Positions 1,386 to 31,200 of a stretch of DNA of 64,000 nucleotides are shown one piece after another. Made by a program: the position numbers and the translations under genes. Origin of the DNA: Pleionea litopenaei (GTDB lineage: Bacteria > Pseudomonadota > Gammaproteobacteria > Enterobacterales > Kangiellaceae); assembly GCF_031198435.1 (NCBI RefSeq), contig NZ_CP133548.1:558001-622000 (forward strand), given 5' to 3'. Each line of letters opens with the position of its first letter. The stretch's first letter is position 1. The notes beneath the pieces were generated by a model. That model was not told the DNA's origin and searched no databases. It saw only the letters and a program-made list of their open reading frames with translations.

Positions 1386-2649
1386 GGATTTAAGTCCTAA
1401 GTTTCTTTTGAAATCAAGTACCTAACCTTAGCACTGATAAGAGTAAAAACCTAGGGCGTTAAAGGTCTAAAAAGTGCACCGAATCTCTTTAGGCTAGCTA
1501 ATGGTTCGACGATAGGTTGACAGAATATGACTAACCAATACTCATATTAAAACCTTGTCCATTTAGAATAATATCCATTTAAAAGAATAACCATTTAAAA
1601 CCATAACCATTTAAAACCTAATTAATTTAAAACCTTACTGTTTTAAAAAAGTACTATTTTAAAAAAGCTACTATTTTACAGGATGTCCATTTAAACCACC
1701 CGTTTAAACCAATGCTTATTTAAAGCAAGCGCATATTAGGCAATTTCAATTCCGTTTCTATATTTTTATGCGGGTATATTTTTTTTGAGAAAGCGTAAGA
1801 AATATTTAGAGAAAGTATCGGTGATAAAGCGTAAGCGTTTTCTGATTGTCTAATATTTAATCTCGTAAAAATCAAACTGCAATATATTTATTGGCTAGCA
1901 GTGTTGCGAGGTAAAAATAATACTTAATGAGATATTGTATTCACCAGGAATCATATCTATTTCATATTGATATACCGCATTAGGAGATTAACTATAGCTT
2001 TCAATAACTTGATAAATACGCTTGATAAATAAGATTAATGTTAAGATGAAATGAGATTAATTTTGAACGATTACTTTTCGAGTGCCTCACAAATTCTAAA
2101 AATATTGATTGCGATCAAAATCAAAACTACCTATCTTTTTAGTGAGATTTAAACACTTAATTTACTAGTGGTTATTTGTTGATGAGATTTTTCTCACGCG
2201 TCACTGGATTGAAATCTTAATGTTTTATGGTGATACCTATTTGGTGCGAATTAAAATATTTTAAATTTTTATGCAGTTTTCCGTGCTGGCAGGTTGAATA
2301 ACTTTGCCGCTGAATAAGATAAACAGGCTGTTCTAAATTTAAAGCGTTAATGAACGGTTTAGTGTCATATAGCTTGTTTTATATTGAGTGTTTTAAGGAT
2401 TAAGATACGAAGGTGAAATTAAAAGAAAAAGTGAACAACTTTTCGTAGGCCTACAGGTTTTATTGCGTAAGGATGCGTAACAGTACACACCATTCACTAA
2501 CTTCTTTTGAGTTGATTTGCAGTCCCTTCTTTGTGAGACAGAGCGTTTTGATTCATGTGTCGGTTCTAGAAATTAGAAATCAATATGAATGTCAAAACGT
2601 CTGTTATACATAGTGCTGGTTTATTAAACATCTACATGGAGTGAATAGA
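1386..2649. other. 1.26-kb AT-rich intergenic region upstream of the eCIS operon
   Basis: No open frame of useful length or with a convincing start is present on either strand. The DNA is strongly AT-rich. It contains the 16-bp repeat array at 1542-1730, and beyond that irregular A/T tracts up to the sheath gene. It separates the divergent dehydrogenase and eCIS operon, so it should hold their promoters; I could not pick a -35/-10 pair with confidence. Such a long AT-rich leader would suit nucleoid-protein silencing, which is inference only. Confidence 0.6.
1542..1730. repeat. Array of about twelve 16-bp TTTAAA-centred units
   Basis: TTTAAA or a one- or two-base variant of it occurs at 1546, 1562, 1578, 1594, 1610, 1626, 1642, 1658, 1674, 1690, then 1703 and 1719. 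The spacing is exactly 16 bp except for one 13-bp step. The best units read ACCATTTAAAACCATA, ACCATTTAAAACCTAA and TCCATTTAAAAGAATA, so a consensus close to WCCATTTAAAACCWTA can be drawn; flanks decay towards both ends. The core is palindromic and recurs every 1.5 helical turns, so neighbouring units face opposite sides of the helix. Candidate protein-binding iterons or a decayed minisatellite. Confidence 0.85.
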
Positions 2650-5055
2650 ATGGCTGTTAATCCCACCTATCCAGGCGTTTATGTGCAAGAAATACCGAGC
2701 GGAGTGAGAACCATCGCTGGGGTAAGTACCTCAGTCGCATTAATGTTAGGTCGAAGTCGTCAAGGTCCGTTAAATGATCCAAAGTTATGCTTAAGCTACA
2801 GTGATTACGAGCGGATATTTTCTAGCGATAGTTCATTGAGCGATTTATCGAGACAAGTGAAGCTATTTTTCCAAAATGGTGGAACGCAATGTCATGTTAT
2901 GAGAATTGCTAATGGCGCTATTGCCGCAAGTGTTGAATTGCAAACCAGTGGTGGAGATGGCACGCTTGTTTTAACCGCAAAACAAGCGGGTAAGTTGGGC
3001 GAAACCATTCGTGTAAGAGTTAATTACAAAGGCCAGTTACCAGAGTCGACGTTTAATTTAACCATTTTTAGACTAGAAACCAACGCTGCCGGTGTTCAGC
3101 AAGAAGTTGCTAGTGAATCATTTCAAAATTTATCGATGGATCCTAACAGTCCATTATTCGCTCCAGACTATATTGACCAAAATTCAGCGTTAATAACTGC
3201 GTCAGTCAGTGGTACATCACCCGGTGCGTCAGCTGGTTTTTCGCAATCAGCAATGCCTATTATTTATGACAGCTCCGATCCTGCAAGTTTTCAAACGGCA
3301 TGTGAAAACGCACTTGGCGATGAAGTAGATACGAATCAACTGAAAATTAGCATAGATGGCAGTCGCTTCGTTGATGTTGATTTTAGTGACATCGATGTTT
3401 CGGCGTTGGCTGGGCCTTCAATAGTAGAGTTTAGAACGCAATTAGCAGCAGAAATGTTAAGTGCCATTGAGTCTGCATTCACGCTGGCAAATTTAGCAGG
3501 TACAACTTGTACCGTCAGTTTGGAAGATGGTCCCACTCCTGGAGCCAATGAAGCGCCAGCGGATGCGTCAGTTTTATTCCGTTTTACATCAAATAACGAC
3601 GGCGATTTGCTGGTTCGTTCGGCCAATCAAAATGACCTTGCTGCGAGCTTGCGATTGGGCAGTGGGCAAGGTGGTTTAGAAGTCACTTCTTATTCAGAAG
3701 CGCGACCCGCCGCGAATGGTGTTAATTTGCATTTTACGACAGCGGCTACCTGGAACGCCTTAGCGCAGCTGACCCAAGACAGTTTAACTGACATAACTTT
3801 ACCTGCCGTTGACAGCGACGGGAATGCCATCACACAAACGATTAATTTCGATTTAGTCACGTCTGACTCAGCTGACCCCATGTACTTTGGTGGTGGAGTA
3901 AGAGAGAAGTTAGCCATTATTCGAGATGCGATCAATAACCATCGAAATGCCAACAAACGAACATTCTTTTGGACTGCAACCTTAGATGGATATCGCTTGA
4001 GTCTAGAGCACAGCAAAGCTGCGGATAACTACATTGGTACCGTCACAACAGCACCCACCAATTTGGTTGCGGCGATAGCTGCAGCCGTTGAGTTGAATGT
4101 AAAGCAGTACAGTGTTGGAACGACAGGAACCAGTGGTCAACAAACGCCCGGTAGTGCAGGTGACGATGGTAGTGCACCTTTGCTCAGTGATTACGAAGAT
4201 GCTTTCCTAGTCGCCGACAGAGACATCGATATGTTCAACCTTATGGTTTTGCCGCAAGATGCCGAACCTGCGCAACCAATCACTGATATTTATGGACCAG
4301 CCAGTATTTTTTGCCAAGAGTCGAGAGCATTTTTAGTCATGGATCCACCTAGCGATTGGACTGACGCAGAAAGCGCAACCGCTGGTGTCGATGATCTTCG
4401 AGTGGGATTAGTGAGCGACCATGCTGCGGTTTTTTATCCGCGAGTTAAAGTTAATGAAAACGGACGAGTTATACATGTTGGACCGTCAGGTGCGATTGCA
4501 GGACTTATGGCTCGCATTGATACATCTCGTGGTGTGTGGAAAGCACCTGCTGGAATAGAAGCCTCGTTACGCGGTGTTGTTGGGGTCGAACGACAATTCT
4601 CTGATAGAGAAAATGGTGTCTTAAATCCTCGAGCGATCAATACCATTCGTTCGTTTCCAAATGGAATCGTTAATTGGGGATCTCGCACCATGGACGGCGA
4701 CAATGATTTTGGATCTGAGCAGAAGTATATTCCAGTCCGTCGCTTGTCACTTTACATGGAAGAAAGTCTATATCGCGGCTTAAAGTGGGTCGTCTTTGAA
4801 CCGAATGATGAACCTTTATGGGCTCAAATTCGCTTAAACGTTGGATCATTTATGCATGGTCTGTTCCGACAAGGGGCCTTTCAAGGCAGCACACCTAAAG
4901 AAGCTTATTTTGTTAAGTGCGATAGTGAGACCACAACCCAAGCCGATCGAAACTTAGGTATTGTTAATATTGTGGTGGGTTTTGCTCCGTTAAAACCAGC
5001 TGAATTTGTGATTCTTTCTATTCAGCAAATTGCTGGTCAATTAGAAGCAGGCTAA
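2650..5055 (+). CDS. eCIS contractile sheath protein
   Basis: Phage tail-sheath family protein (Afp2-4/Pvc2-4 type) that polymerises around the inner tube and contracts to drive it into a target. The N-terminus MAVNPTYPGVYVQEIPSG is the classic sheath opening, and the C-terminal third (MEESLYRGLKWVVFEPND ... LFRQGAFQG) is the conserved interlocking sheath domain. At 801 residues it is longer than simple sheaths (about 350-480), because of a large variable insertion near residues 100-500 that is expected on the outer surface. I start at ATG 2650, not GTG 2641: the GGAG at 2638-2641 is well spaced for 2650. It is the only sheath gene seen; Afp has three. Confidence 0.95.
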   Translation: MAVNPTYPGVYVQEIPSGVRTIAGVSTSVALMLGRSRQGPLNDPKLCLSYSDYERIFSSDSSLSDLSRQVKLFFQNGGTQCHVMRIANGAIAASVELQTSGGDGTLVLTAKQAGKLGETIRVRVNYKGQLPESTFNLTIFRLETNAAGVQQEVASESFQNLSMDPNSPLFAPDYIDQNSALITASVSGTSPGASAGFSQSAMPIIYDSSDPASFQTACENALGDEVDTNQLKISIDGSRFVDVDFSDIDVSALAGPSIVEFRTQLAAEMLSAIESAFTLANLAGTTCTVSLEDGPTPGANEAPADASVLFRFTSNNDGDLLVRSANQNDLAASLRLGSGQGGLEVTSYSEARPAANGVNLHFTTAATWNALAQLTQDSLTDITLPAVDSDGNAITQTINFDLVTSDSADPMYFGGGVREKLAIIRDAINNHRNANKRTFFWTATLDGYRLSLEHSKAADNYIGTVTTAPTNLVAAIAAAVELNVKQYSVGTTGTSGQQTPGSAGDDGSAPLLSDYEDAFLVADRDIDMFNLMVLPQDAEPAQPITDIYGPASIFCQESRAFLVMDPPSDWTDAESATAGVDDLRVGLVSDHAAVFYPRVKVNENGRVIHVGPSGAIAGLMARIDTSRGVWKAPAGIEASLRGVVGVERQFSDRENGVLNPRAINTIRSFPNGIVNWGSRTMDGDNDFGSEQKYIPVRRLSLYMEESLYRGLKWVVFEPNDEPLWAQIRLNVGSFMHGLFRQGAFQGSTPKEAYFVKCDSETTTQADRNLGIVNIVVGFAPLKPAEFVILSIQQIAGQLEAG

Positions 5056-7275: not shown

Positions 7276-8553
7276 ATGAGTATGTTAGATATTTCTCAAG
7301 TTACGCGAACACTCGTTAATGTTATTCAGCATCATATCGAGAATTCTTCAGTATGGTCAGATGATTCAACATTGAGTGTAGTGCCAGACCCGCCAGATAG
7401 TCTAGCAGGTGATAACGCGTTAGGGCTGTATCTTTATCATATCAAAGAAGATCCAAGCATGAAAAATGCGCTCCCGATGGGAAACTCTAACCCTCCCATT
7501 AAATTTACAGCGATGCCTTTAATTCTTTTTTATCAATTAAGTGCTCATAGTGACTTGAGTTCACCAACAGGTTCCTATCGTGAACAAATGCTACTTGGCG
7601 CTGCGATGAAAGCATTACATGACAACCCAATTATTAACGATGATACCTTAGTCGCTGGTGAAACAGTTATGCCTCTAATTCTAAGAGGACAAGACAATCG
7701 AATAGCCCTTGAGCTACGTCCAGTAGAGCCAGAAGATGCTGTAAATTTCTGGACGGCAGGGTCAACACCTTTAAGATTAGCCGCTTACTATCAAGTTTCC
7801 GTTATCTTGCTAGAACCCGAGCCTATGCAGCGTTCTGCCAATCCAGTGTTGGATTACAATGTATTTGCTTTTCCTGACTCGACGCCATTAATTACTTCTT
7901 CTCGCTATTCTTTAGATATTTTGCCACCGGGAGCAACAGAATCTCGAGAGATTGTATTGCAACCAGCGAGGGCTCCTTATGGTGCCAGAATCGTTATTAA
8001 TGGATTTAACTTGAGTGGCGACGAAACGTTCGTATATTTGCAGTACGCCGATTGGGACGTCCCTAGAAGGCTTAATTCAATTGATTGGTCAATTCAATCT
8101 GATAATTCAGAAGTTAGCTTAGTGATTCAAGATAACATTGATGGTGATGAGTTAGCTCCAGGACTATACAATTTATTTATTGAAGTCGCTAAAGAGAGGG
8201 TGACTCCGAATGGACAGACTAAACAGTTCACCAATCTCTCTAACCCAACTCCGATAATGATCGCTCCAAGAATTGACACAGTATCGACACCCAATGCTAA
8301 CGGTGTGTTTACGATTAGCGGGCGTATCTTTGAAGGTGTTGATATTACTCAAGATCACGTAAAACTATTTCTTGGGGAGTCAGCTTTAACTCAAGGGGCT
8401 GCTGGCAGTTTAGCGTTCGCAGAATTTGCGATTGTCGATCAAGAAAATTTGGAGATTCGTTGGCTTGAAGATACCAGTGTTGGAGATGTTTATTATTTAA
8501 GGGTTCAAGTGCGAGATGCTGACAGTTTACCCCGATGGTTGGTCATCTCATGA
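7276..8553 (+). CDS. DUF4255 eCIS cap / tail terminator (Afp16/Pvc16-like)
   Basis: The N-terminal 190 residues match the DUF4255 (Pvc16 N-terminal) pattern: an initial helix (ISQVTRTLVNVIQHHIE), then GLYLYHIKEDPSMKN and a YQLSAHS...EQMLLGAAMKALHDNP segment. This family caps the tube and sheath and sets particle length in Afp. Residues 230-425 form a beta-rich extension with IPT/TIG-like strands (YGARIVINGFNLSGDE), longer than the core family. It lies directly before the AAA+ gene, matching the paired position of Afp15 and Afp16 homologues, and its stop overlaps that gene. Confidence 0.88.
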   Translation: MSMLDISQVTRTLVNVIQHHIENSSVWSDDSTLSVVPDPPDSLAGDNALGLYLYHIKEDPSMKNALPMGNSNPPIKFTAMPLILFYQLSAHSDLSSPTGSYREQMLLGAAMKALHDNPIINDDTLVAGETVMPLILRGQDNRIALELRPVEPEDAVNFWTAGSTPLRLAAYYQVSVILLEPEPMQRSANPVLDYNVFAFPDSTPLITSSRYSLDILPPGATESREIVLQPARAPYGARIVINGFNLSGDETFVYLQYADWDVPRRLNSIDWSIQSDNSEVSLVIQDNIDGDELAPGLYNLFIEVAKERVTPNGQTKQFTNLSNPTPIMIAPRIDTVSTPNANGVFTISGRIFEGVDITQDHVKLFLGESALTQGAAGSLAFAEFAIVDQENLEIRWLEDTSVGDVYYLRVQVRDADSLPRWLVIS

Positions 8554-10592
8554 GCCAACTTCACGCGTTAAATACTCAGTTTCAGCTCAGCCGAAGTTTA
8601 CTACCTGAGGATATAGCTAGTCTGGTATCGGAAGTGAGTTTGCGAGTTAAGCAACGTATCGCCTGGTTGGAGTCTTTAAAAGAAAATGAATTAAATCAAC
8701 AACAGTATATGTTCGAGTTAGATAAGCCAGAACATGAACTTATCTGGAGACGCAGTGATTCTAATCCGTTTAGAGATGAGTTGCTAAAGGTTATTGAGGC
8801 TCGAAATGCGAATGATGGGGGACGATTAAATGAGTTATCTCGGCTATTTGGCTTTGCGCAAGAAGATACACATTTGTTTGAACTGTGTGTCGTAGCCTAT
8901 CTAGTACCCCATATTGCTAATCTATTCTCTGTTATTAAATCTGAGCCAACAAACAGTGTAACTGAATTATTAGTCAGTCGACTGTATGACTATGGTTATT
9001 ACTACTCAATAAAATCAGAGTCGCCACTCATTGTATGGGGGATTTTGCGAGAGGGCGTCACTAGTCATGATGAACATTACTTCAAGATCGATGAACACAT
9101 AATGAATTGGCTAATGAATGATCCTGGACTGCATCGTCTTCTTACAGGTCGTGCTGCAATTGTAAAAAGTAAACCGCCATTGCAAAAGCCAACGCTTGAG
9201 ATCTTTGCTGAAGAGATTCGGCAAAAGCTATTAACCATTAAAGATTGCAAATTAGTTATAGCTGTTGAAGGAGAATGCCGTAGTGGTAAGAAAACGATTG
9301 CCGCATTTCTGTCTGAATACTTGTCATTTCCGCTGTTGGCTTTTAATAGCTTTTCTGCGAGTGAACCTGAATTAAAAAGTATTATTACTTTAGCTCATCG
9401 GCAAGCGTACTTGGATAAGGTGGCTCTATACTGGTCGAACCAAGAGTTTATCCAACATGCAAGCATCCCAAATTTCCCAATACAATTCGTCGGTATCTCT
9501 CCAGGCGAAAGTTTAGTTGTTTCTGATAGCTATACCCTTGTTTATTATCGTATTCCTGAATTAACCATAGAACAAAAGGAAGCCATTTGGCGACAATCTT
9601 TTAAGGGGTTCCATAGTTTTAACGAAGATCAAAGGCGCTCTATTCTTTCAAGAAGAATGTCGATTGGAGAACTGCATTCAGAAATAAATGCTGGCGAACA
9701 AGACTTTGATAAATTAATTCAAAATATTAACCGTAGAGAGCTAAATCAATTTGACCGATTGGCCAAGCCGCTAAACTCTGAGTTTACAAGAGATGACCTT
9801 ATTTTAAAGAACTCAACCCTTAAACAAATAGATGACTTTATTTTTGAAGCTAAAGTACGTGATGAATTTTGGGAGAATTCAAAAGCAACTAGACTTTTTC
9901 CTAGAGGAACAGGGTTAGTCGTATTATTGGCCGGCTCACCAGGCTCCGGCAAGACAATGTCTGCGCAAGTTGTCGCTAATGAATTAAATAGACCTCTTTA
10001 TCGTGTCGATTTGGCTTCCGTTGTAAGCAAATACATAGGCGAAACGTCAAAACATTTATCTAAGCTTATCGAGCAAGCAGCTGAATCAAATATTATTTTA
10101 TTTTTCGATGAGGCCGATGCTTTATTTACTAATCGCACTGAAGTCAACGACGCTCATGATCGTTACGCGAACACTGATACAAACTTTTTGTTGCAAGCTA
10201 TTGAAGATTTTCCGGGTGTGGCGATACTTGCGACTAATAAGAAAAGTAATCTAGATAACGCGTTCGTTCGTCGATTACGCTACGTTATTGACATCAACGA
10301 ACCTGATAGTCTACTTCGATTTCAATTGTGGAACAAACTGTCGAGTGAAATATTTGAAGTTTCTAATGATAGGTTTAAACCCTTCTTTAAAATTCTTTCT
10401 GAACAATACGCTTTAACCGGAGCTCAAGTAAAATTCATTTTACTGTCCGCTACCTTCAGTGCCAGACAGCAAGGCACGAAAGTTAGTGCGGAACACATCC
10501 TTAAAGGGTTACAAAGAGAGTTGTTAAAGACTGGTCGGCACCTTTCTGAACAGGAAATATCTATTTTACACCGCTCGGCTAGGGCAGTTTGA
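8550..10592 (+). CDS. eCIS AAA+ ATPase (Afp15/Pvc15-like)
   Basis: AAA+ ATPase of the eCIS type, thought to act in particle assembly or effector loading. The C-terminal module has Walker A GSPGSGKT (residues 462-469), Walker B ILFFDEADALF (Asp520-Glu521), a sensor-1 ILATN and a paired arginine FVRRLRY. A second, divergent nucleotide-binding site, EGECRSGKKT (from residue 241), lies upstream, so this is a two-module protein whose first site looks degenerate. I start at ATG 8550, which overlaps the previous stop as ATGA and suggests translational coupling; ATG 8535 is the alternative. Confidence 0.92.
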   Translation: MSQLHALNTQFQLSRSLLPEDIASLVSEVSLRVKQRIAWLESLKENELNQQQYMFELDKPEHELIWRRSDSNPFRDELLKVIEARNANDGGRLNELSRLFGFAQEDTHLFELCVVAYLVPHIANLFSVIKSEPTNSVTELLVSRLYDYGYYYSIKSESPLIVWGILREGVTSHDEHYFKIDEHIMNWLMNDPGLHRLLTGRAAIVKSKPPLQKPTLEIFAEEIRQKLLTIKDCKLVIAVEGECRSGKKTIAAFLSEYLSFPLLAFNSFSASEPELKSIITLAHRQAYLDKVALYWSNQEFIQHASIPNFPIQFVGISPGESLVVSDSYTLVYYRIPELTIEQKEAIWRQSFKGFHSFNEDQRRSILSRRMSIGELHSEINAGEQDFDKLIQNINRRELNQFDRLAKPLNSEFTRDDLILKNSTLKQIDDFIFEAKVRDEFWENSKATRLFPRGTGLVVLLAGSPGSGKTMSAQVVANELNRPLYRVDLASVVSKYIGETSKHLSKLIEQAAESNIILFFDEADALFTNRTEVNDAHDRYANTDTNFLLQAIEDFPGVAILATNKKSNLDNAFVRRLRYVIDINEPDSLLRFQLWNKLSSEIFEVSNDRFKPFFKILSEQYALTGAQVKFILLSATFSARQQGTKVSAEHILKGLQRELLKTGRHLSEQEISILHRSARAV

Positions 10593-10876
10593 TGACCAAT
10601 CGTAATTATACAAGCGTTAACAAGCCTAAGTTGTCGATCAACAAGCTTTCTTTACGGTTGGGCAATGAAAATGCTAGAGGTGTAGATAATAGCAGTTTAA
10701 ACCTTAGCAAAAGAATGCTAGGTAAACTTGCTTGCGAGCTGGCAAGTCGTAATGTCGAAAGAAATATTAATCTTGGTGAAATAAGTCTAAAACTTACTGT
10801 CGATCACGGCGTAAGTGAACATCAAATAATTCAAGCTATCGTAGAGTCATTAGTAGACAAGGTGCTAAAAGAATGA
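10592..10876 (+). CDS. Small eCIS-cluster protein of unknown function
   Basis: 94 residues starting at ATG 10592, whose A is the last base of the ATPase stop codon, and ending with TGA overlapped by the ATG of the giant downstream gene. Both overlaps point to coupled translation within the operon. The sequence has two short beta-like strands (LSINKLSLRLG; INLGEISLKLTVD) flanking a helix and ends in a helix (IIQAIVESLVDKVLK). I do not recognise a family. Its fixed place between the ATPase and the DUF4157 protein suggests a role in loading or stability of that protein, as inference. Confidence 0.75.
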   Translation: MTNRNYTSVNKPKLSINKLSLRLGNENARGVDNSSLNLSKRMLGKLACELASRNVERNINLGEISLKLTVDHGVSEHQIIQAIVESLVDKVLKE

Positions 10877-13800
10877 CTTCGAATAGTACAAACAACGCTG
10901 CAATTTCTAGAGGTGAAGCCTCTAAAGATCAGCGCGTCACTAATAAAAAGCAAGCGGTTCTGATAAAGCGTCAAAGTGATGAACGAACGAATAAGCATGA
11001 GGTTCAAGCAAGAGCAATTGTAGAACAATGGCGTATTTATGGCCTAAATAATATTAACTCTACCAAGCTCAATCAAAATGAACCGTCGATGCTGTCTTCT
11101 CGTGACTACGAGAGAAACAAAGCTCAGATAACGCCGGCTCGTATGGCTAATTTTTCTATTGCAAATAGTCTAGGGGTAGCGCTGTCACAGAAAGTCCGAG
11201 CGCCCTTCGAAGATTTTTTTCAGGCTGATTTTTCAAATGTGCGTATTCATAGTGATCAAGCGGCTAATGATTTTTCTAAAGATATTAATGCAAAAGCATT
11301 TACCGCAGGAAACCACATCTACTTTTCACATGGCGCCTTTCAACCAGAGACTTTAGCCGGTAAAGATTTACTTGCTCATGAGCTAACACATACCCTTCAG
11401 CAGGCCGGGAGGCGGACTCATGATACTCAGCAAAAAGTGGTTTCTGTAAATTTTCAAAATAATAATCCAAATGCTGTTATCGACTTGCAGAGGGATGCGT
11501 TATTCGATCAGATGGTCGAGGCCTATCGAGCTGAGGCCGATAATAATAATGCGCTAAACGATACAGAGACCTCCCGCGAACGCCGGCTTTCTGCGTTTAA
11601 TGATGTTGAGCAAATCATACGAAATATCATCGGCTTAAGAGCAGAATTAAATACCACGGTCGGTGCGAACGCGGCTGCAGTACAATTAGAACAAGCTATT
11701 CTCGGTGCGAGTGATGAGGAATCACGCCGGTTAGCAGAGCAAATTGATCTGCAACCTTTAGTGGTTAAGGCTTTCCTCTACGATTGCTTAAGGCTGTTAG
11801 GACGATTTGAAGGGGCAGCAAAAATAATAGACGATGAGCCCATGTTGATTAGTTGGCTTACTTATGTTCGATTTGAAAGTCAATTCAGTCAGTTGGTCGG
11901 ATTTAGAGCGTTTTTATTAACGGATGACGACTATGGAAAACAGTGGGCGTTCGATATTATCGAGGACGTTTATGGTGATGATTTTCCGTATAATTTATAT
12001 CAAAGTTTATGGGAGTATTTGGTAAGGCCTGAAGTTTCTGCTGAAAGGGCCGCGGACCTTAGTGATCACTATCAAGATTATGAAAGACAAGCATCGACCG
12101 GATTTGCTGGTAATGACCGAGTGCATATAGCGCATCAGTTAGTTCGTGATCTTGACGAAACATTGTATCAGTTGCAGCTCAATACGGATCTTAATAGTCA
12201 GTCCGAAAATAACACTGACAAGAAGTATTCAGTCAGCTATGGCTTTCGTCGCTTTGGCGAGCAAATGCAAAACGGAGAACTTGTATTTGAGCAAAATGGC
12301 GAGCAAGTACAAGTAGATACCGCCCATTTTCGCAGCATCGGTCGTGGAATAAAAAGCCTCTCAGATTCCGCGATAGAATATTGGCAGCTGGTCAGTAACA
12401 TCATTGATGCATCTCAGGCGGCTCAGCCTATAAACCCTGAATGGCAACCAAGTAATGACGATACGTTTGAATCCTTCGTAAGTAAGGTTGTTGAACTGGC
12501 ATCCGCCGTTTTAATTTCTCCTTTAGAGAATGAAGTATTACCAGAGCCGCAAGCCTATTCAGATGCAATGTTTGAACTAACGTCTCAATTAGCGCCATTT
12601 TCCGAACAACTTTCTCATCGCCTGCAATGGAATATTTTTCGATATGAACATAGAAATAATGAGCGTAAACGTCAATCAGCAGCATGGTTAGGTTGGGGAA
12701 TACGTTGGATTGAAGTCTTGCAAGGATTAATACTTCGTTATGTTCAGTCGGATGATGAAGCTTTCGTCGCTGTTTATCAAAGAGCCGATGTTCGATTGAT
12801 GCACCGAATTATTATGGCAAGATATTTTGGTCTTTTTGCCCAGCTAACTCAGCAAAATGAATTAAGTGATTTGTGTAACGATGTTCTTTCTGGTCGCGAC
12901 ATTCAAGATAGTTATCTCGCAATTACCGGCGATTTTAACGAAGATTCCACGCCAATTGCGCAACTAACGGAAGACTATGGCGGACTAATTCATGGATTAG
13001 GCCTTACCGCAGCTCAATTGGTTAATCTATATGGCGTCTTGCATCTAGAAAGCTTTAATCGGCGACTAAGTACGCTTTTGATTGGAACGGAAGCCGAACC
13101 CGAACAAGGAAGGTTGCGGTTAATGGATGATGCGGTTGAAACCGCAAGAAGGGAGGTTCCGAAGCCTAAGCGCTACTCAGTACCTTCTACAGATTATTGT
13201 ATTGTCTACTACCGAGAAACTGAAGACAGTTTACCAAATCGTTCTTTGGAAGAAATGTTACTGTCCCACCCGATTTATCAGGAATTTTCACAACCGATCA
13301 TTGCAGCAGGTGGTGGTGTTATTAGACCACGTGGTTTCCCAAATGAACTTTATGTATGGAAGTTACCTTCTTTTGCTTTTATTAGCGCATCACTGAGACG
13401 ATTTACTGATTTAAATGATTTAGTCATTGTGCTTGCCGACTTACCCGAGAGTGTCTCTAACTTAATCTGGATGGAAAACTACATTGCTTTAATTGAAGAC
13501 GGTATCGACAATGAAGGTGGTCAATCTGAATCACAATTAGCACTTCGAGAGCGTTTGTTAGGTCTAGTAACCGGTAATATTGACCGACTCAGGGAAACAG
13601 CGAATAGCGATCGAGCCTATCTTTTGACCAGAGCAACCATTCGCAGAAGACGAGCGCTAGCCATTGATTTAAATCAGCAAATTCATGAATACAATGAAGA
13701 TCGAAGTATCGGTAACTACACGGTACCAAATGATATTTTAGGTGAAATAACAGATTTTACGCGTTTGGGCTGGTCGGAAGATATGGCTGCCCATGAAGCT

Positions 13801-16800
13801 GCTTTGATTTTATCGTTGGCCGAAAAGTTAAAGGAACTCTTTATTCAAGATACTTGGTTAGGGGACATTCAAGAAAGGCGCTATGATCTAGTGACGGGGT
13901 ATTATGGTTACGTAGAACGAGCAATTACATTAGCGGAAGATGAACCAGAGCGAATTCGAGCGGTTACTTTTGCAGCGAGTAATTTAAGAGATAGTGATGC
14001 GGCTGTACATAACCGTAATCGTGTTAGCTATGAGTCGGCCGATGATTTACTTTCAAATATTTCGCATTTAAATACGCTAAAGTCATCGTTAGATACGGTT
14101 ATAACAAGCGTACAAACGCGCTTTGGTTTTGAAAGTGATCGAGAAGAAATTCGTTCGCTCAATTTCCATCATAGCCTAGCTATTGGCGAAGTTATGGAGA
14201 TTATGGGGCATACCTATCGAATAACTCGAGTTTACCGTAGTTTTAGATTTCATCCTCCTTATGGTGTCGGTACCGATGCTATTTCACCTGCCATTGTTAA
14301 TGATCTTCGTGGTCGTCCAATTCGAGCTAATGCAACCATTTTAAAATTCACCATAGATACTGGTGAAGAGATCACTGTTCGAAATCGTGAAAGTGATATG
14401 CATTATCTAGTGTTGCTTGATGAAATTATTGCGACAGCAGCTTTTGTTGGAAGTCTCAATAATTTAGAAGAAATACTAGAGCAAGCATTAGAAACAGGAC
14501 TTGATTTAGCTGAGCTAATTCCAGGCATAGGTCAAGGCGTGATGGTTGCTCGTCTCCTATTTGCGATAGGGCAGTTTGTAATTCGTGATTTGCCTGACAT
14601 ACAAGAAAAATTGATCAATAACCCACAACAAATGATTGATCAAGTAACTGAGTTGATTGGTAATGAGTTAGAAGCCGCGGCACCACGCTTCTTAGAGTAT
14701 ATGTTATTTGGTGATCTTCCTTTCGAGAGTCAGTTGGTAGCACCAGATGTTGATGATGACTCTGGTTCTTCTGGAGGAAATTCTAGTCGTCGAAAGCTTA
14801 AAAGATTGTTTGAGTTTGTCACTGAAATGTGTGAAGACGCATTACGAGCTTTTGTTCGCTTAAGAGGACGTATTCGAGGCTCATTTGTGCAAGCTCAAGG
14901 AAGAATCGTCAGTAGTCGCATGCTTTTAATGCTGATCGATGCGGTACCTATATTACTTCGATTAGCAGAACTCGGAAGAGATACGTTTATAGCGTCCGAA
15001 GCACTCGATTTAACGGATCCTGAAAGATTACAAAGCCGAGCAAAAGAAGAAATAGAATCCATCGTTAATAGTATGGTTAAGCTGGAAATTCCTAACGAAA
15101 TCATACCTATGTCCGTCGCGATTGAAGTCATTCTAGGATTTGCTATTGGTAAGTTTGGAAGGAAAGGAAAAATAGTAAAGGAGATACTTGAGGTCACTGG
15201 TGCACTCGGCGAAGCGTCAGAATTAATAGCCGATGGGTTAAGTTCGCAGGGTATTGATCCAAACATACTATGGCGAGATCAAGTTCGAGTAAAACTACAA
15301 CCTTTACTGGAACATGTTCAGGCAACGTTATATACCCAGGTTCAAGAATTAATTGAAACAGCCACCAACGGTGCTATTGTGTTAGATGAGCCAGAACTTC
15401 GAGAAACTGAAATTAACTTTGATGAGTTTGACGAAGACAGCTTGTCGATGGATGCAAAAGCTCGATCTAGTCAACCCGCTCAAACTCGACCTGAAGGTGT
15501 TAATACCTCGTCGGGGTATCCACTTCCGGAAGATCTTCTTTCTCAATTTTCATCAGAATATGGTCACAATTTTGAGCATGTTCGAATGCATCGAGATACC
15601 CAAGCTGCCGAATTAACGCATGAGGCAGATGCTCATGCACTTACTTGGGGAAGTCATATTTTCTTAAATCGTTCTCTGAATCCTCAAACGACCCAAGGAA
15701 GGCAAATACTCCGACACGAGTTAGCTCATGTGTTACAGCAAACTGGGCCTAGGCATAGAGAGTACGATCATTCTGTTTGGCCAATTTCTGGTTCAAAAGG
15801 TCAGGGTGTTCGCTATGACTCTGCTAAAGAGCGTGCTGCTGATAGCATGGCGCAAAGAGCAGAAAATTCAGATTGGGAAGAGAGTATTTCAATTGAAGGC
15901 AGTGGGGGCGGTTTTTTTATGCCTTCGATGCGAAGTATGGCGACTCGTATTTTAGAAAACCTAACCGATGGTGATGTTGCAGAAAATCAAGCCACAGCTT
16001 TTGAAGAAAATGTGCCACGTAGTATTGCTAGAAAGGCAACATTTTTAGATGCGGTAAGTGATGCTAGGAGAATATGGACGGATACGAAAAGCCACTTAGC
16101 CAATGCGACGCTATCGAATTATCTTGCACCATTTGATCAGAATCAATCGCGAATTCAAGGATATTTAGCAAATACTTTTCATTCAACGGTTAATGATACT
16201 ATACCTGGCATTGTTTTACGCAGCATTCAAACTCAGGCAAATGACCGGGTTCGTCTTCTACCACGACTGTTTGCGAATAACTTAGAAACCTATCTTTTTG
16301 CTCGAACTGGCTACGTCGTTAATATCGATATTGATAGTGGCCGAGCTGGCCGCATTACCATGCGTTACCTTCACTTAGCAAATCTTGACGCTCGCTCGGG
16401 ACCGTTTCAAGATATGAAAGCGAATACCATAACGTGGGTTCAAGCGAATCAACCTGACCGTTTATCGTTATTTCAGTCTGCATCTGCGTGGAGTCAAATT
16501 AAGTTATACATTGACGAACGATTGCAAGATGCTCAAGTGTGGCACAGTAGCGAATTTAGACTGAGTGACCGTTTTATCTTGGATACGATCACTATGCTTT
16601 ACAACATTGGTGAAGTCGAAGTCGATTCATGGTCCGAATACAAGAATCCTGATAATGTCGGTTCATCTAAAGCAGGTATACGTGTTGGTACGCATGAAGA
16701 ATTGACTGGCTCAAGAATGCCTCGGGGTGCTCGAACTGGAAGACAGTCGCATCATGTCCCTCAGTACTTATTAGTTGAATATTTCAGAAATAATAATCAA

Positions 16801-17427
16801 AGCACGCTTTTATTCGACGATGTGAATGAAAAGCTTCCCGGATTTATCGATACCACCACACATAGAAATCTTCCTGGTTACAGTACTTCTGGCTCAACTC
16901 GAACAATTGATTTGGAGAAACTCGATCCTAATGGCAATCGCGGAGATAAATTGCCTGCGGTGTCACTAGCGGCTATTACCCATCAAAAAGGTCGATTGCA
17001 TATGAATGCGTCTTCTTCTTGGGGAGAGACCGATGACTTGGAAAGCCCAGCAAGTCAAAGTGAGAAAATTGACCAAGAGTTCATCCGAAATTTAAATCAA
17101 CAACAAATTACCGGGAATAAAGCCGAAATTGCCAGCTATGCTCGCGGTCTTACTGGCAGCAGTCTCACGGATTTCAAACGTAAAGTAGTCGTGGCAATGA
17201 AAGGCACTTATGCATCTATGTACGAAATAATGATTACCGCATTACCTAACGCGTTAGTTCGATATGAGATTCCCTATTACAAAGCGGTCGTTATGAACCA
17301 ACGAGGTTTAGATTCAGAAGACGACTTACCCGTTGGATTTAATCCTAGTGAGTCGGCTACGGAGATCAGAAACATTGTGTCTGCCGTAGAAAGCAAAAAT
17401 AATGAGAAAATGAGCGAGTGGACTTAA
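10873..17427 (+). CDS. Giant eCIS protein: two DUF4157 domains and SHH nuclease-like C-terminus
   Basis: 2184 residues. An eCIS-core DUF4157 domain spans about residues 107-180 and ends in HELTH (169-173); a second spans about 1549-1624 and ends in HELAH (1615-1619), each with the family's RxH or RMH, AGNHI or GSHIF, and LLAHE or LRHE landmarks. Between them lie about 1370 mostly helical residues, with a hydrophobic helical stretch near 1200-1260. The last 230 residues include RQSHHVPQYLL (SHH at 1959-1961) and a later His-rich ITHQKGRLH, resembling Tox-SHH HNH/EndoVII toxins. DUF4157 marks proteins carried by or built into eCIS particles. No other gene here is long enough to be a tape measure, so it may serve as one. 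The start ATG overlaps the upstream stop. Confidence 0.85.
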   Translation: MTSNSTNNAAISRGEASKDQRVTNKKQAVLIKRQSDERTNKHEVQARAIVEQWRIYGLNNINSTKLNQNEPSMLSSRDYERNKAQITPARMANFSIANSLGVALSQKVRAPFEDFFQADFSNVRIHSDQAANDFSKDINAKAFTAGNHIYFSHGAFQPETLAGKDLLAHELTHTLQQAGRRTHDTQQKVVSVNFQNNNPNAVIDLQRDALFDQMVEAYRAEADNNNALNDTETSRERRLSAFNDVEQIIRNIIGLRAELNTTVGANAAAVQLEQAILGASDEESRRLAEQIDLQPLVVKAFLYDCLRLLGRFEGAAKIIDDEPMLISWLTYVRFESQFSQLVGFRAFLLTDDDYGKQWAFDIIEDVYGDDFPYNLYQSLWEYLVRPEVSAERAADLSDHYQDYERQASTGFAGNDRVHIAHQLVRDLDETLYQLQLNTDLNSQSENNTDKKYSVSYGFRRFGEQMQNGELVFEQNGEQVQVDTAHFRSIGRGIKSLSDSAIEYWQLVSNIIDASQAAQPINPEWQPSNDDTFESFVSKVVELASAVLISPLENEVLPEPQAYSDAMFELTSQLAPFSEQLSHRLQWNIFRYEHRNNERKRQSAAWLGWGIRWIEVLQGLILRYVQSDDEAFVAVYQRADVRLMHRIIMARYFGLFAQLTQQNELSDLCNDVLSGRDIQDSYLAITGDFNEDSTPIAQLTEDYGGLIHGLGLTAAQLVNLYGVLHLESFNRRLSTLLIGTEAEPEQGRLRLMDDAVETARREVPKPKRYSVPSTDYCIVYYRETEDSLPNRSLEEMLLSHPIYQEFSQPIIAAGGGVIRPRGFPNELYVWKLPSFAFISASLRRFTDLNDLVIVLADLPESVSNLIWMENYIALIEDGIDNEGGQSESQLALRERLLGLVTGNIDRLRETANSDRAYLLTRATIRRRRALAIDLNQQIHEYNEDRSIGNYTVPNDILGEITDFTRLGWSEDMAAHEAALILSLAEKLKELFIQDTWLGDIQERRYDLVTGYYGYVERAITLAEDEPERIRAVTFAASNLRDSDAAVHNRNRVSYESADDLLSNISHLNTLKSSLDTVITSVQTRFGFESDREEIRSLNFHHSLAIGEVMEIMGHTYRITRVYRSFRFHPPYGVGTDAISPAIVNDLRGRPIRANATILKFTIDTGEEITVRNRESDMHYLVLLDEIIATAAFVGSLNNLEEILEQALETGLDLAELIPGIGQGVMVARLLFAIGQFVIRDLPDIQEKLINNPQQMIDQVTELIGNELEAAAPRFLEYMLFGDLPFESQLVAPDVDDDSGSSGGNSSRRKLKRLFEFVTEMCEDALRAFVRLRGRIRGSFVQAQGRIVSSRMLLMLIDAVPILLRLAELGRDTFIASEALDLTDPERLQSRAKEEIESIVNSMVKLEIPNEIIPMSVAIEVILGFAIGKFGRKGKIVKEILEVTGALGEASELIADGLSSQGIDPNILWRDQVRVKLQPLLEHVQATLYTQVQELIETATNGAIVLDEPELRETEINFDEFDEDSLSMDAKARSSQPAQTRPEGVNTSSGYPLPEDLLSQFSSEYGHNFEHVRMHRDTQAAELTHEADAHALTWGSHIFLNRSLNPQTTQGRQILRHELAHVLQQTGPRHREYDHSVWPISGSKGQGVRYDSAKERAADSMAQRAENSDWEESISIEGSGGGFFMPSMRSMATRILENLTDGDVAENQATAFEENVPRSIARKATFLDAVSDARRIWTDTKSHLANATLSNYLAPFDQNQSRIQGYLANTFHSTVNDTIPGIVLRSIQTQANDRVRLLPRLFANNLETYLFARTGYVVNIDIDSGRAGRITMRYLHLANLDARSGPFQDMKANTITWVQANQPDRLSLFQSASAWSQIKLYIDERLQDAQVWHSSEFRLSDRFILDTITMLYNIGEVEVDSWSEYKNPDNVGSSKAGIRVGTHEELTGSRMPRGARTGRQSHHVPQYLLVEYFRNNNQSTLLFDDVNEKLPGFIDTTTHRNLPGYSTSGSTRTIDLEKLDPNGNRGDKLPAVSLAAITHQKGRLHMNASSSWGETDDLESPASQSEKIDQEFIRNLNQQQITGNKAEIASYARGLTGSSLTDFKRKVVVAMKGTYASMYEIMITALPNALVRYEIPYYKAVVMNQRGLDSEDDLPVGFNPSESATEIRNIVSAVESKNNEKMSEWT

Positions 17428-18596: not shown

Positions 18597-19652
18597 ATGG
18601 ATTCGAGAATTGTTTTAACCATAAACGGAAATGTAAGTGACTTATTAACGTCATCAGCTAGCATTTCGGTTTATGAAAAAGCAGGCCAAGCAACTGAGTT
18701 TCAATTGCGATTACCTATCGACATAGTTGACTCTGACTTTCCTATGTTACTCGAAAATGATCTAGCTCCCGGTAATGAAGTTATGATTTTGGCCTCTTCA
18801 GATGATGTATCTGAATGCTTAGTCAAAGGACAAATCTTCGGTCACGAAGTTCAATACCTTCATGGAGGAGTTGGTTCGAGTGTCAGGGTTTTTGGTGGTG
18901 ATAGCCGGTTTACTATGCAAAGAGAAAATAAATGCGTGCAATGGGCAGACGTAACCGATAGCGAAGTCGTTTCGTCAATAGTTGCTCAGTATGGAATGAT
19001 TCCTGAAGTCAGTGCGACTGACTCTCGCCATTTAACCGAGAAGCACTCACTGATTCAGCGAAATACCGATGATTTTTTTATCGATATGTTAGCAAAAAGA
19101 AATGGTTTTTTGTTTTGGGTTGGATCAGACGACTCAGGAATCGAGACGGCCTATTTTCAACCGCCTCAGTTACAAGGCGATGCTCACTTTGATTTGGTAA
19201 TTAATATGGACGAAGCTAATCTTGATGAGTTTACTTTAAAATGGGACTGTTTAAGAGCGACTGAATTTAGTGCCAATCAACTCGACCTCAACTCTCTAGA
19301 ATTAATTGAGGCTAATGCATCTGAGGCAGATTTAGAATTTCTTGGTAACACCATGCTTAGTCAAGTCATTAATCAGCAAGCGAATTTTCATTCTTTAGCG
19401 CCAGCGAACGATACTGGATGTTTAACATCACTGTCAAAAGGAATGCTTAACGATTCACAATGGTTTATCCATGGAAAATGTGTCACCAGCGCTAATCGAC
19501 TAGGACGAATTTTGAGAGCTAATAAATTGGCTAACATACGAGGCCTGGGCAGTCGACACAGTGGTTATTATTACATCGTTTCGGTGACTCATACGATAGA
19601 TTCCACTCGTCATCTAATGAATGTAGAGGTGGTGCGCAATGCTTGGTCATAG
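18597..19652 (+). CDS. Baseplate hub protein, phage gpD-like
   Basis: Hub half of the spike complex (first part of Afp8/VgrG; late-control gene D family). The core SLIQRNTDDFFIDMLAKRNGFLFWV is the conserved gpD helix and strand, and a C-terminal barrel segment with FIHGKCVTSANRLGRIL follows. 351 residues is normal. Hub and spike are separate genes here, whereas VgrG-like proteins join them. The ATG follows TAAGG by a single base, an unusually short spacing, so translation may depend on the upstream gene. Confidence 0.88.
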   Translation: MDSRIVLTINGNVSDLLTSSASISVYEKAGQATEFQLRLPIDIVDSDFPMLLENDLAPGNEVMILASSDDVSECLVKGQIFGHEVQYLHGGVGSSVRVFGGDSRFTMQRENKCVQWADVTDSEVVSSIVAQYGMIPEVSATDSRHLTEKHSLIQRNTDDFFIDMLAKRNGFLFWVGSDDSGIETAYFQPPQLQGDAHFDLVINMDEANLDEFTLKWDCLRATEFSANQLDLNSLELIEANASEADLEFLGNTMLSQVINQQANFHSLAPANDTGCLTSLSKGMLNDSQWFIHGKCVTSANRLGRILRANKLANIRGLGSRHSGYYYIVSVTHTIDSTRHLMNVEVVRNAWS

Positions 19653-19663
19653 CGAGGTCTAAA

Positions 19664-20221
19664 ATGTTTAATCGAGTTAAATATTCGAATGGTTTCCCAA
19701 GTGATCAAAGTTTTTTTGGGAAGTACCGAGGAAAAGTCATTGACACTAATGATCCAACTTCAAGGGGACGGTTGTTGGTAAGCATTCCTGCGGTGTTAGG
19801 TGAAATTACGGTTTGGGCAATGCCTTGTGTTCCCTATGCAGGCGATCAAGTCGGGTTCTATTCGATACCGCCCGTTGATAGTGGAGTTTGGTGTGAGTTT
19901 GAAGGAGGAGATCCTTCGTATCCAATTTGGGTAGGGTGTTTTTGGGCCGATGGTCAACTCCCAGATGATTCCGATCAAAACATAAAGATCTGGAAGACAA
20001 AAGAACTAACCGTTCGTCTCGATGACAATGCAAGTGAAATTCTGATTGAAAGCAGTGATGGAGCCAAGGTAGTGATTACCAGTGAAGTGCTTAGTGATGC
20101 TGGAGGCGCTAATCATACCGTCGGAGGTTCAGGTGTGATATCAGACAGTGGCGGTAATGGCAAAGTTGAAGTGACCAGTGCTTCTGTTTCAGTTAATGGA
20201 AATGCATTAGAAGTTATTTGA
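19664..20221 (+). CDS. Baseplate spike protein, gpV/gp5 OB-fold type
   Basis: Central spike (second part of Afp8). The OB-fold pattern is clear: FFGKYRGKVIDTNDPTSRGR, then VWAMPCVPYAGDQVGFYSIPPVDSGVWCEFEGGDPSYPIWVG. The C-terminal residues form short beta repeats rich in Gly, Ser and Asp, expected to build the needle. ATG 19664 is preferred because GAGG lies 6 nt upstream; the frame itself extends back to TTG 19643 within the hub gene. 185 residues, a compact spike without lysozyme domain. Confidence 0.9.
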   Translation: MFNRVKYSNGFPSDQSFFGKYRGKVIDTNDPTSRGRLLVSIPAVLGEITVWAMPCVPYAGDQVGFYSIPPVDSGVWCEFEGGDPSYPIWVGCFWADGQLPDDSDQNIKIWKTKELTVRLDDNASEILIESSDGAKVVITSEVLSDAGGANHTVGGSGVISDSGGNGKVEVTSASVSVNGNALEVI

Positions 20222-20666: not shown

Positions 20667-21038
20667 ATGAACGCATTTAAAAGTTTTAAACATCCGATTG
20701 CCATTGATCTTGGTACTCGTTCTTTAAGTATTGAACGCGATTATGAACAACATGTGGTTCAGCTCATTAAGCAGGTCTTGTTTACCAATCCTGGTGAGCG
20801 GGTCAATTTACCCGACTTTGGATGTGGTCTGAGGCAATTGATCTTTGCTCCAAACAGTGACGTGGCTGCAAGTATTGCTCAAGTTAAGGTTTATCAAGCA
20901 TTAGACAAATGGCTTTCGTCAGTAATGGATGTCGATGCAGTAGAAATCAAGTCTAGTAATGAAAAGCTCTATATCAATATTGCTTACTATTTGAAAACCA
21001 GTGTTGATAAAAAAACATTAAACGTTGAGGTAAGCTAA
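20667..21038 (+). CDS. Baseplate wedge protein, GPW/gp25 family (Afp9-like)
   Basis: 123 residues with the nearly invariant gp25 signature NPGERVNLPDFGCGLRQLIFAPNS. In T4 and Afp this protein joins the sheath to the wedge and starts sheath assembly. A GGGAGAG Shine-Dalgarno precedes the ATG. The last base of its stop is the first base of the next gene's ATG, so translation is coupled. Confidence 0.95.
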   Translation: MNAFKSFKHPIAIDLGTRSLSIERDYEQHVVQLIKQVLFTNPGERVNLPDFGCGLRQLIFAPNSDVAASIAQVKVYQALDKWLSSVMDVDAVEIKSSNEKLYINIAYYLKTSVDKKTLNVEVS

Positions 21039-28198: not shown

Positions 28199-28210
28199 GG
28201 AATAGTGACA

Positions 28211-31200
28211 ATGGGAACACAAGATATATCTCGATCGATTTTTGATCCTGAAAAACATTATCGAAGCGTTGGTCAACAGCAAGGGCGAGTGCTGACAGAC
28301 GATGATTGGAATGAGAACAATAACATCGATGAACATTACCAACGCGGATTAGCATTTGATGTTGTTGGTTCAGCTGGAAGTCCAAATGAAGGGTTTCGAA
28401 TTAGTGATCCTGTCATTACTGATCGAGGCGTTGATTTTAAGATTGCTGCGGGCACCTTTTACCTCGGTGGAATGAGACTAACATTAGAGAATTCTGAGAG
28501 CTACTTGTTACAAAGTGATTGGTTACAAGGACCAGAGTTAGTAGAGGGCTCAGGTCCAAGAAACGATTTGGTTGTGCTTGAAGCTTATCAGCAAACGGTA
28601 ACTGCAGTTGAAGACAGTGAGTTATTTGAAGTCGCTTTAGGCAGTGCAGATACAACCACGCGGCAAAAATTAATGCAAAGAATTCATCTTCTTGGCGATA
28701 TTGATAGCGCTGAGTGTGAACATGCATGGGCAGAATTCAAGCAAATGCTGGTAGAGGATGGAAGTTGGCAATCAGACAACTGTCTCTTACCCGATGCGCA
28801 ACTTAATGTTGGCTTTGTCGACTCTGGTGTTGGCGATGATTTGTGTCGTCCGACGGCTGCTGGAGGATATTTAGGTGCAGAAAACCAAGCAATAAGAGTT
28901 CAGCTAGTGGACGAGTCACACTTGACTTGGGGCTTCGACAATGCTGCACCGCTCTATCGGGTTGAAGTCGATGTTGATAGACGTACTTTACGACTTATGA
29001 CACCTCCAAAAGATCAAATGCAATGGCCCAGTGCTGATCAAGTTGTTGAAATTTTACCTTGGTGCGCGGTGCTTCCTAATAATCAAAAGTTAGCTGAACA
29101 TTCCGGTCATTTAACTAGAGTTAGCACTTCTTATAACCCTGATACCGGCGCTATTGAAATTGCTGACGCCATTCCAGAGGATGGTTTTGATGAATGGGAG
29201 CAACGACTAGACTCTGATGAACTGTCTGAAAATGGACGCTATTATTTTTTGCGAGTATGGAATAGAGGGAGTGATCGAGAATCGTCTGAATCCATCGAGT
29301 TTTCGCCTAATGTTCCCGTAGCGTTAGGTAATACGGGTGTCGAAATTACATTAAGTGGAACTCAATTTAACGGTGGTGATTATTGGGTTATCGCGGTTCG
29401 ACCAGAAACTCCAAAACAAGCTATGCCTTGGATTTTAGAGGCAGGTCGTGGTCCCAATGGTGTTAAGCGGTATTTTAGTCCTTTAGCGATTCTAAGCTGG
29501 CAAGCGGACCAAAGTGTTTCAGTAACCGATTGTCGGCCACGCTTTCGGCCTTTAACTCGACAGAAAATATGCTGCAGTTATGTTATTGGTGATGGCGTTT
29601 CAAGTTTTGGCGATTTCAACTCAATTGAAGAAGCACTAGATCGGCTTCCGCAAAAAGGCGGAGAATTATGTTTACTCCCTGGAATACATCGAGCAAATGT
29701 CACTATTTTAAATAAATCAGGTATCACTATTAAAGGTTGTGGTCGTCGAACAAAAGTAATCCCTAGAGAAGCCGAGCAAAGTGAAGCTTTATTTTCTATT
29801 TATGATTCTAGCCATATTAAAATACACCACCTGGAATTAATCGCGTTCGATACCACCGCAATTGCTATCGTCGCCAGTGAAGCAGATGCGGTTAGCTACA
29901 TCAATATCTGTGACAACTCCATCTTTGCCTGTGAGAGTGGTTTGAAAAACTTAGATGGTAATCATCTGCTGATAGAGCGAAACACCATAAAGATGATTGA
30001 TAAAAGGGATGCAGGTGTCGCCGTATTTAGTCGCGGCGATGACGTTCTTATTCGTGACAACTTAATTGGCGTTTTGCCTTATCAAGAAAATATTCCTGGA
30101 GATGATGGTGGTGGCTCGGATAATCCCAACCCATCGGATAACTGTTTAGATTTAAACTTAATCTATCGTAATCCGACTTACTTAGTTCAATGGATTAATT
30201 TTGCATGGTCTTTTGATCTAGTCGCTTATATTCCTACTAATCCATATCGAGCGTTAGGTGGAATACAAATCGGCAGTGGTTCTGAGCGCATTGAAATTAT
30301 ACACAATCAAATAATCGGAGGGGCTGGAAACGGTATCACTTTAGGAAGTGAGCCGATCGTCGATGATTTTGAGGCACCGAACCCGCGTCCTCCGGTTAAT
30401 ATTGATGTCCAAGAGAGAAGCGTTACTGGATTCGTTCAGCTCAATGGTGAGGCGGTAGCCGATGAGGTCGTTGTTTTAACGCAAGACGATGTCGTTCATC
30501 AGGGGGTGACCAGCGATCAAGGATATTTCTCGATGGTAGTAAACCCACTTGGTCAATACACTGTAACAATAGCCGATCCCTCTATTGCCGTTGAAAGTGT
30601 AGAAGTTATTGATGCCGGTGAATTTGGTGTTTACTACCAAATTAATGTGGTTGACGTCGACGTTGATATCGATATGAACGATGTACTTGCTTTTATTTAT
30701 CAAGTCAATATCGACGATAATCGAATACAATCTATGGGCGAGAGTGGAGTAGGTTTTCCTCGCTTAACCGCTGACGATATTAAAGAAGTTTTGCGACTAT
30801 TGGTTCAGCAAGGCGGCTTAAATAATGCTGCTAGAATGTTATTGCTTCTAGGCATGATTTTATTCGGAGCGTTTACCGGATTGGTTATGCAATTAAATAT
30901 TCGCAATAATTTAATCGTTGGGTGTTTAAGAAATTTATTAGACATAAATGAAGGTGAGCTAGGTAAACGTTTTCGTGGTATCGGTGGGATTTCTCTGCCA
31001 TTTTGTGAAGAAGTCGTCATCGCGGGTAATCGAATAGAAGATAATGGCGTGGTTCATCGAGGTCCGGTTCAAGGCATCTTTATTATAAGCACCACCCATG
31101 CAGAGATTTATGAGAATCACATAGTTAATAATGGTGCAACCACCGTGAGTAGCTTGCAAAACCCCCTCGTTGGTGGAGTACTAATTTTCATTGCTGCAGA

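Follow-up and report, generated by a model that had tools for sequence, protein, structure and literature searches.

Two differently built DUF4157 domains and an Ntox14 end in a giant protein from a contractile injection system operon of Pleionea litopenaei

The giant gene and its domains

The window analyzed here, a stretch of 64,000 nucleotides from Pleionea litopenaei (assembly GCF_031198435.1, contig NZ_CP133548.1, positions 558,001 to 622,000), contains an operon for an extracellular contractile injection system (eCIS; 2641–32604), in which a gene encoding a protein of 2184 amino acids (aa), referred to below as the giant, lies between the AAA ATPase and hub genes. The giant carries two DUF4157 (eCIS_core) domains, one close to its N-terminus and one internal, and is made up as follows:

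10873..17427, +, giant gene (putative eCIS cargo), 2184 aa; open reading frame (ORF) and translation, Pfam, same layout in 10 other uncut giants
10873..11181, +, N-terminal leader, residues 1–103; low model confidence at 1–39 and 62–84, E43xxA46 helix at residues 40–65
11182..11409, +, first DUF4157 / eCIS_core domain, residues 104–179; PF13699, HELTHxxQ at 169
11410..15519, +, trunk, residues 180–1549; Pfam, trunk-profile searches, structure model
15520..15750, +, second DUF4157 / eCIS_core domain, residues about 1550–1626; PF13699, HELAHxxQ at 1615
15820..15864, +, helix after the second domain, residues 1650–1664; E1653xxAD, candidate third zinc ligand
16489..17010, +, Ntox14 toxin domain, residues 1873–2046; PF15522, RxSHHxxQYLL at 1957, His 2037 and 2043

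An earlier note on this DNA had claimed that a single ORF holds two full DUF4157 domains and had proposed a profile search over both segments. The search bore this out: with separate pieces of the protein, PF13699 gave 98.9 bits for residues 104–179 and 82.3 bits for residues about 1550–1626 (residues 71–147 of the piece that begins at residue 1480) against a cut-off of 22, so that both segments, not just one, score as DUF4157. In a PF13699 search of the whole genome (4.42 Mb) the two domains, at 102.7 and 85.3 bits, were the only matches over the cut-off, which excludes chance. The C-terminal domain of the giant had been overlooked in the earlier note and is Ntox14 (PF15522; 83.3 bits in the whole protein and 88.6 bits in a piece, cut-off 25), its motif columns (RxSHHxxQYLL and the His residues) being invariant in a five-row alignment of giants (A1). 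About 560 residues, including Ntox14, stand C-terminal of the second DUF4157.

No Pfam family was matched by residues 300–1500, and among the genomes searched the trunk profile was met in giants only. The structure model of the trunk, which ends at residue 1190, is mostly helical with some strands and is best ordered at about 600–1040, at low confidence. The linker before the second domain (about 1501–1550) varies and contains many gaps (top-residue share 0.33, gaps 0.28). Hydrophobic segments of the giant are weak (19-residue means of 1.4–1.9) and partly common to the relatives, near residues 1220 and 1415.

Relatives of the giant and rarity of the layout

Including that of the window, 11 uncut giants were found in 10 genomes or records, all with the order DUF4157, about 1400 residues, DUF4157 and an Ntox14-like end. 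Two HExxHxxQ motifs and RxSHHxxQY were present in each of the 11, with 1446–1603 residues between the HExxHxxQ motifs in 10 giants and 1550 in the remaining one (L089). Sizes were about 2180–2350 aa; L046 and P0004 seem to have over-extended ORF starts, which makes their lengths of 2365 and 2296 aa upper bounds. PF13699 scored both domains in all 10 giants searched, L089 being assessed by its HExxHxxQ motifs and Ntox14, and the Ntox14 domain was scored by Pfam in the five giants scanned and also in genomes G1222, G704 and G706. For L046, L047, L049, L050 and L051 the toxin end was linked by tblastn and motif; of these, the genome of L047 was also scored with the Ntox14 model.

A member of the same genus, G004, has a homologue, and Aliikangiella coralliicola (G013; NZ_ML660163.1), which belongs to the window's family, has two in tandem; the whole-protein search matched four of 61 genomes, including the window's own and one domain-only match. 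The tandem giants of A. coralliicola (L037, 3206–17094) sit on different branches of the giant tree, and two single-DUF4157 ORFs (543 and 1571 aa) lie on another contig of this genome (L035, contig 5, about 505–508 kb). A further homologue is carried by plasmid pMTS1 of Cupriavidus sp. P-10, three (H1, H5 and H20) of the 74 plasmid records matched having been examined; the eCIS region of the Cupriavidus megaplasmid (L041, NZ_AP025172.1, 94.6–140.4 kb) has no annotated feature, the whole 1.6 Mb record holding two. A scan of genome contigs for the toxin end gave 22 pattern stretches, of which nine, at eight loci, were confirmed, and added a Comamonadaceae metagenome-assembled genome (MAG), two Novosphingobium, a Burkholderiaceae record (BURC), Andreprevotia lacus and a Desulfobulbus MAG. 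The copy in the Desulfobulbus MAG is cut by contig ends, and its N-terminal half was found after an AAA-like ORF. An Ntox14 search over 297 genomes of the Desulfobulbus phylum added the giant of G1222, which may be Desulfobacca, one of the two genera (with Pelobacter) from which Ntox14 was listed as a PVC toxin associated with PVC-metallopeptidase (PMC3482391). The founding members of Ntox14 may belong to the giant family, given the 377.5 bits that this giant of the Desulfobulbus phylum reaches against Ntox14. In the nine relatives' loci read, the giant comes after an ORF with the size of an AAA gene, the Pfam scan of this gene being that of the window. Relatives were sought via the whole protein, the toxin end or Ntox14, so that giants lacking the toxin end would be visible in the trunk searches only.

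The PF13699 surveys covered Pseudomonadota. DUF4157 was found in 34 of 369 genomes of the class sample (at least 71 matches) and in 24 of 299 genomes of the phylum sample (at least 36 matches), the two samples partly overlapping in genomes, and in each the one double ORF was the window's own. This agrees with the statement of the earlier note that the domain normally occurs once per protein, as regards the candidates scored: double ORFs were judged by comparing coordinates and ORF lengths by eye, with at most 14 (class) or 18 (phylum) first-look candidates scored per genome, and a second match could have escaped. In the family sample (six of 40 genomes, 17 matches) four ORFs had two domains and nine had one. 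Ntox14 was found in one of 299 genomes of the phylum, two of 297 of the Desulfobulbus phylum and one of 246 of the Novosphingobium order. Of the four genomes, G000, G704 and G706 were themselves the centers of those searches; three of the matches were on giants and the fourth on the cut Desulfobulbus piece. The double-domain layout is thus rare, yet conserved where found. Neither “two DUF4157 domains” nor “tandem DUF4157” was met as a phrase in the collection of papers searched, and none of the titles listed dealt with the subject. The domain-enrichment count of the main published census dropped duplicated domains within a gene, according to its Methods (PMC8213781), so that double-DUF4157 proteins would not have been conspicuous in it.

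Different position of the E-helix in the two copies

The two domains differ in the position of a conserved helix with the motif ExxA (the E-helix). In copy 1 this helix begins 104–126 residues upstream of HExxH; E43 and A46 are invariant in alignments A1 (five rows) and A6 (nine rows), and the leader helix at residues 40–65 was modeled at a predicted local distance difference test (pLDDT) score of 70–81. In copy 2, ExxA[D/E] is located downstream of HExxH, at +36 to +42, in 11/11 giants, and the E1653 helix of the window corresponds to helix 151–165 in the copy 2 structure model, for which the zinc-peptidase matches were all weak. Copy 2 thus shows one of the features described for PVC-metallopeptidases, a Glu on a helix after HExxHxxQ, the motif being present in every uncut giant and the Glu a candidate zinc ligand. 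The ExxA motif was present downstream of copy 1 in one of 10 giants (a count of this one motif, not of every Glu) and upstream of copy 2 in three of 10, at scattered positions. The E-helices of the two copies resemble each other. The copies are not equivalent, their E-helices being arranged as if circularly permuted. The protein may be targeted or processed at two points, as the earlier note had also proposed, but the different placement of the E-helix speaks against one signal being simply repeated.

The eCIS operon

The operon begins with the sheath, the tube, a pair of unassigned genes, the cap, the AAA ATPase and the giant; then come a hub-type protein, the spike, an OB spike, a PAAR-like tip, gp25, three genes for the baseplate, the fiber and one small gene. 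Besides the giant they include:

2641..5055, +, tail sheath; PF04984, PF17482
5103..5600, +, tail tube; PF06841
7276..8553, +, tail terminator / cap; PF14065 Pvc16_N
8535..10592, +, AAA ATPase; PF00004
17539..18297, +, probable tube initiator / hub protein; PF19266 CIS_tube below cut-off (14.0 vs 27), position
18597..19652, +, spike hub; phmmer match to All3320 chain 7b5h_AJ, E 5.6e-08
19643..20221, +, spike OB domain; PF04717
20310..20651, +, probable PAAR-like tip; PF14107 DUF4280 below cut-off, position
20667..21038, +, gp25-like protein; PF04965
21038..28198, +, three baseplate genes; weak PF04865 (baseplate J) and PF09684 (Tail_P2_I) below cut-off, position
28205..31993, +, tail fiber candidate; PF20129 over cut-off, beta-helix match below cut-off

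The names of the hub, tip and baseplate genes derive from matches below cut-off together with gene order. Sheath, tube, cap, AAA, spike and baseplate genes occur together, as expected of an eCIS. The giant is the largest ORF of the cluster, the next being the fiber candidate (1262 aa), which is the sole other operon ORF of more than 1000 aa. An ORF of 95 codons with a TTG start and no Pfam match (10589–10876, +) overlaps the AAA gene and the giant by four bases each, whereas the loci of G004, Aliikangiella and Novosphingobium have the giant immediately after the AAA-size ORF; in a Streptomyces plasmid eCIS a gene of 66 codons takes the corresponding slot. The small ORF after the fiber gene (31996–32604) has a carboxypeptidase-regulatory-like match below cut-off, as does part of the fiber gene. 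Beyond the operon, a GGDEF protein (32906–34072) and, 15 kb on, a two-receiver EAL protein (48980–51394) place cyclic-di-GMP genes near the injection system, and a weak IS200/Y1-transposase-like match (E 0.0098, below cut-off) lies at 38991–39974 (−).

History of the giants and origin of the second domain

In the tree of the giants the window grouped with G1222, the two Aliikangiella giants went separately to Comamonadaceae and to Andreprevotia, and Novosphingobium joined BURC and Cupriavidus (support 100/100 in each case). As this tree contradicts taxonomy, horizontal transfer is suggested. The trunk (346–1535) and the C-terminal part (1690–2184) gave the same topology, with two forks weakly supported, which suggests that trunk and toxin end have long been inherited jointly; toxin swapping was not seen between these two trees in this sample.

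The earlier note read the protein as a fusion of two eCIS-targeted proteins, and what stands of this is that two genuine domains are present in an eCIS-encoded protein; the joining itself stays conjectural, the 11 uncut giants all being single ORFs. Such a fusion, in which a carrier with DUF4157 and a trunk, resembling Tme of Streptomyces davawensis, would have captured a short DUF4157–Ntox14 effector at its C-terminus and so acquired two full targeting signals, is in our estimate unlikely. The second domain with its toxin does resemble a usual DUF4157-toxin effector, and the preceding linker is variable. Moreover, the second domains formed one clade without first domains in both domain trees (support 98/94, and 97/95 with 80 columns); the first of these trees left out three truncated or divergent rows and the 80-column tree 12 more (L019 and 11 divergent), and their single domains came from the loci gathered, not from the class survey, and were chosen by means of a profile built from the domains of the giants themselves. 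However, neither a stand-alone DUF4157–Ntox14 protein nor a split pair, as which the earlier note supposed that orthologues might exist, was found among relatives sought mostly via the whole protein or the toxin end; the Ntox14 matches and confirmed relatives are on giants or on the contig-end piece of the Desulfobulbus MAG. Nor does copy 2 have an upstream E-helix at a fixed place, and approximately unbiased (AU) tests on the 80-column tree rejected neither one clade of first domains (p 0.47) nor one clade of first plus second domains (p 0.53). The latter result would agree with an internal duplication, in which the domain was copied within the gene and the second copy then rearranged, its E-helix moving to the end, and specialized; the likeness of the two E-helices and a blastp match between the window's two domains (34% identity) point the same way. 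Against such a duplication, which we consider improbable to the same degree, the free trees separate the second domains from the first, and a single-domain protein from G049 (49% identity over query 97–179; paired with support 92/80) lies closer to the window's first domain than the second domain of the same giant does. The domain tree thus rejects neither a common nor a separate origin of the two copies, and internal duplication is as open as fusion.

A different question is whether the giant is chiefly a structural ruler of the tube, a tape measure whose far end is marked by the second DUF4157. The conserved size and motif spacing, the slot upstream of the hub and the scarcity of other long ORFs in the operon would fit this role. 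A PHROGs scan of four giants gave no tape-measure family, and a Streptomyces plasmid eCIS whose gene order is closely similar (L090, L092; NZ_CP109267.1, about 65–90 kb; matched by size and place, many genes there being unnamed) has only a 66-codon gene in the giant's slot. Because this system has no giant in the slot and the trunk model, though of low confidence, is partly folded rather than a single long coiled coil, the giant is less likely to be purely a ruler, and we hold this role to be quite improbable. The Streptomyces eCIS carries a single-DUF4157 effector (1475 aa) at its 3' end. An assembly artefact or chance motif can practically be dismissed, given that the domains score well over the cut-off and that nine further genomes or records have this layout; the independent occurrences also rule out an assembly join inside the gene, a possibility that the earlier note had raised.

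Comparison with known systems and proposed role

The closest described counterpart of the giant is Tme of the Streptomyces davawensis contractile injection system (Nagakubo 2024, PMC11126660), which is likewise about 2200 aa long, with DUF4157 in its N-terminal region and a C-terminal toxin, and the largest ORF, directly upstream of baseplate-related genes; the giant shares its very long largest ORF, N-terminal DUF4157 and place directly upstream of tube-initiator, spike and tip genes (initiator and tip being named partly by position). Compared by description only, Tme has one DUF4157 and an EndA-like nuclease, whereas the giant has a second, internal DUF4157 and Ntox14. Further marks of Tme-like effectors are remote homology to phage tape-measure proteins, several transmembrane helices and membership of the S. 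davawensis sheath clade; on the first two, the observations are the PHROGs scan without a tape-measure family and the weak hydrophobic segments. As in the PVC-metallopeptidase toxins (Zhang 2012, PMC3482391), an HExxHxxQ domain, here in both copies, comes before the toxin; where a second PVC-metallopeptidase is described in that source it is at the extreme C-terminus, as the toxin, while that of the giant is followed by Ntox14. Cgo1 and Cgo2 of AlgoCIS (PMC8894135) and the eCIS-associated toxins (PMC8213781, PMC11297309) are also DUF4157 cargo, sometimes with linkers of more than 1000 residues before the toxin, but are described there with one DUF4157 per protein. In Sle1/Sle2 of S. lividans, DUF4157 is likewise linked with a large tape-measure-like cargo, Sle2 reportedly interacting with a core particle component, but it is provided in trans by a small protein and not in cis (PMC13277306). 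From these accounts, extreme C-terminal second PVC-metallopeptidase domains and the Tme-like giant type were already known, and what the giants add is the internal second copy in a conserved layout.

DUF4157 has been predicted to be an autoprotease releasing toxins, and Ntox14 to have RNase or other toxic activity (PMC3482391). DUF4157 cargo has been located in the tube lumen, with growth inhibition by Cgo1 independent of the motifs (PMC8894135); Tme co-elutes with the spike and tube initiator (PMC11126660). Together with the trans linkage in Sle1/Sle2 (PMC13277306), these reports lead us to propose, tentatively and at somewhat less than even probability, that the giant is the main DUF4157-type, Tme-like cargo of this eCIS, copy 1 serving to dock it and copy 2 to hold or release the toxin. 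By analogy with Tme and Sle2, the leader and first DUF4157 would dock the giant to the spike/hub during assembly with the AAA ATPase, and the roughly 1400-residue trunk would be carried along and would have to pass through the tube. Ahead of Ntox14, the second DUF4157 with its HExxHxxQ and conserved downstream Glu would be a cis module that most likely keeps the toxin loadable and, after injection, frees it, possibly by self-cleavage.

The role of DUF4157 in eCIS cargo has been called unresolved (PMC8213781, PMC11297309), and the recurrence of the same giant layout in distant bacteria offers a handle on its function: with two conserved, differently built copies in one natural protein, one can be disabled while the other is the internal control, so that docking can be separated from toxin release. 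A more general and rather doubtful extension is that DUF4157 exists in two circularly permuted forms with separate jobs, one with the E-helix first, for docking, and one with the E-helix last, an active zincin by which the toxin is freed, and that the giants hold one of each on a single polypeptide, one near each end.
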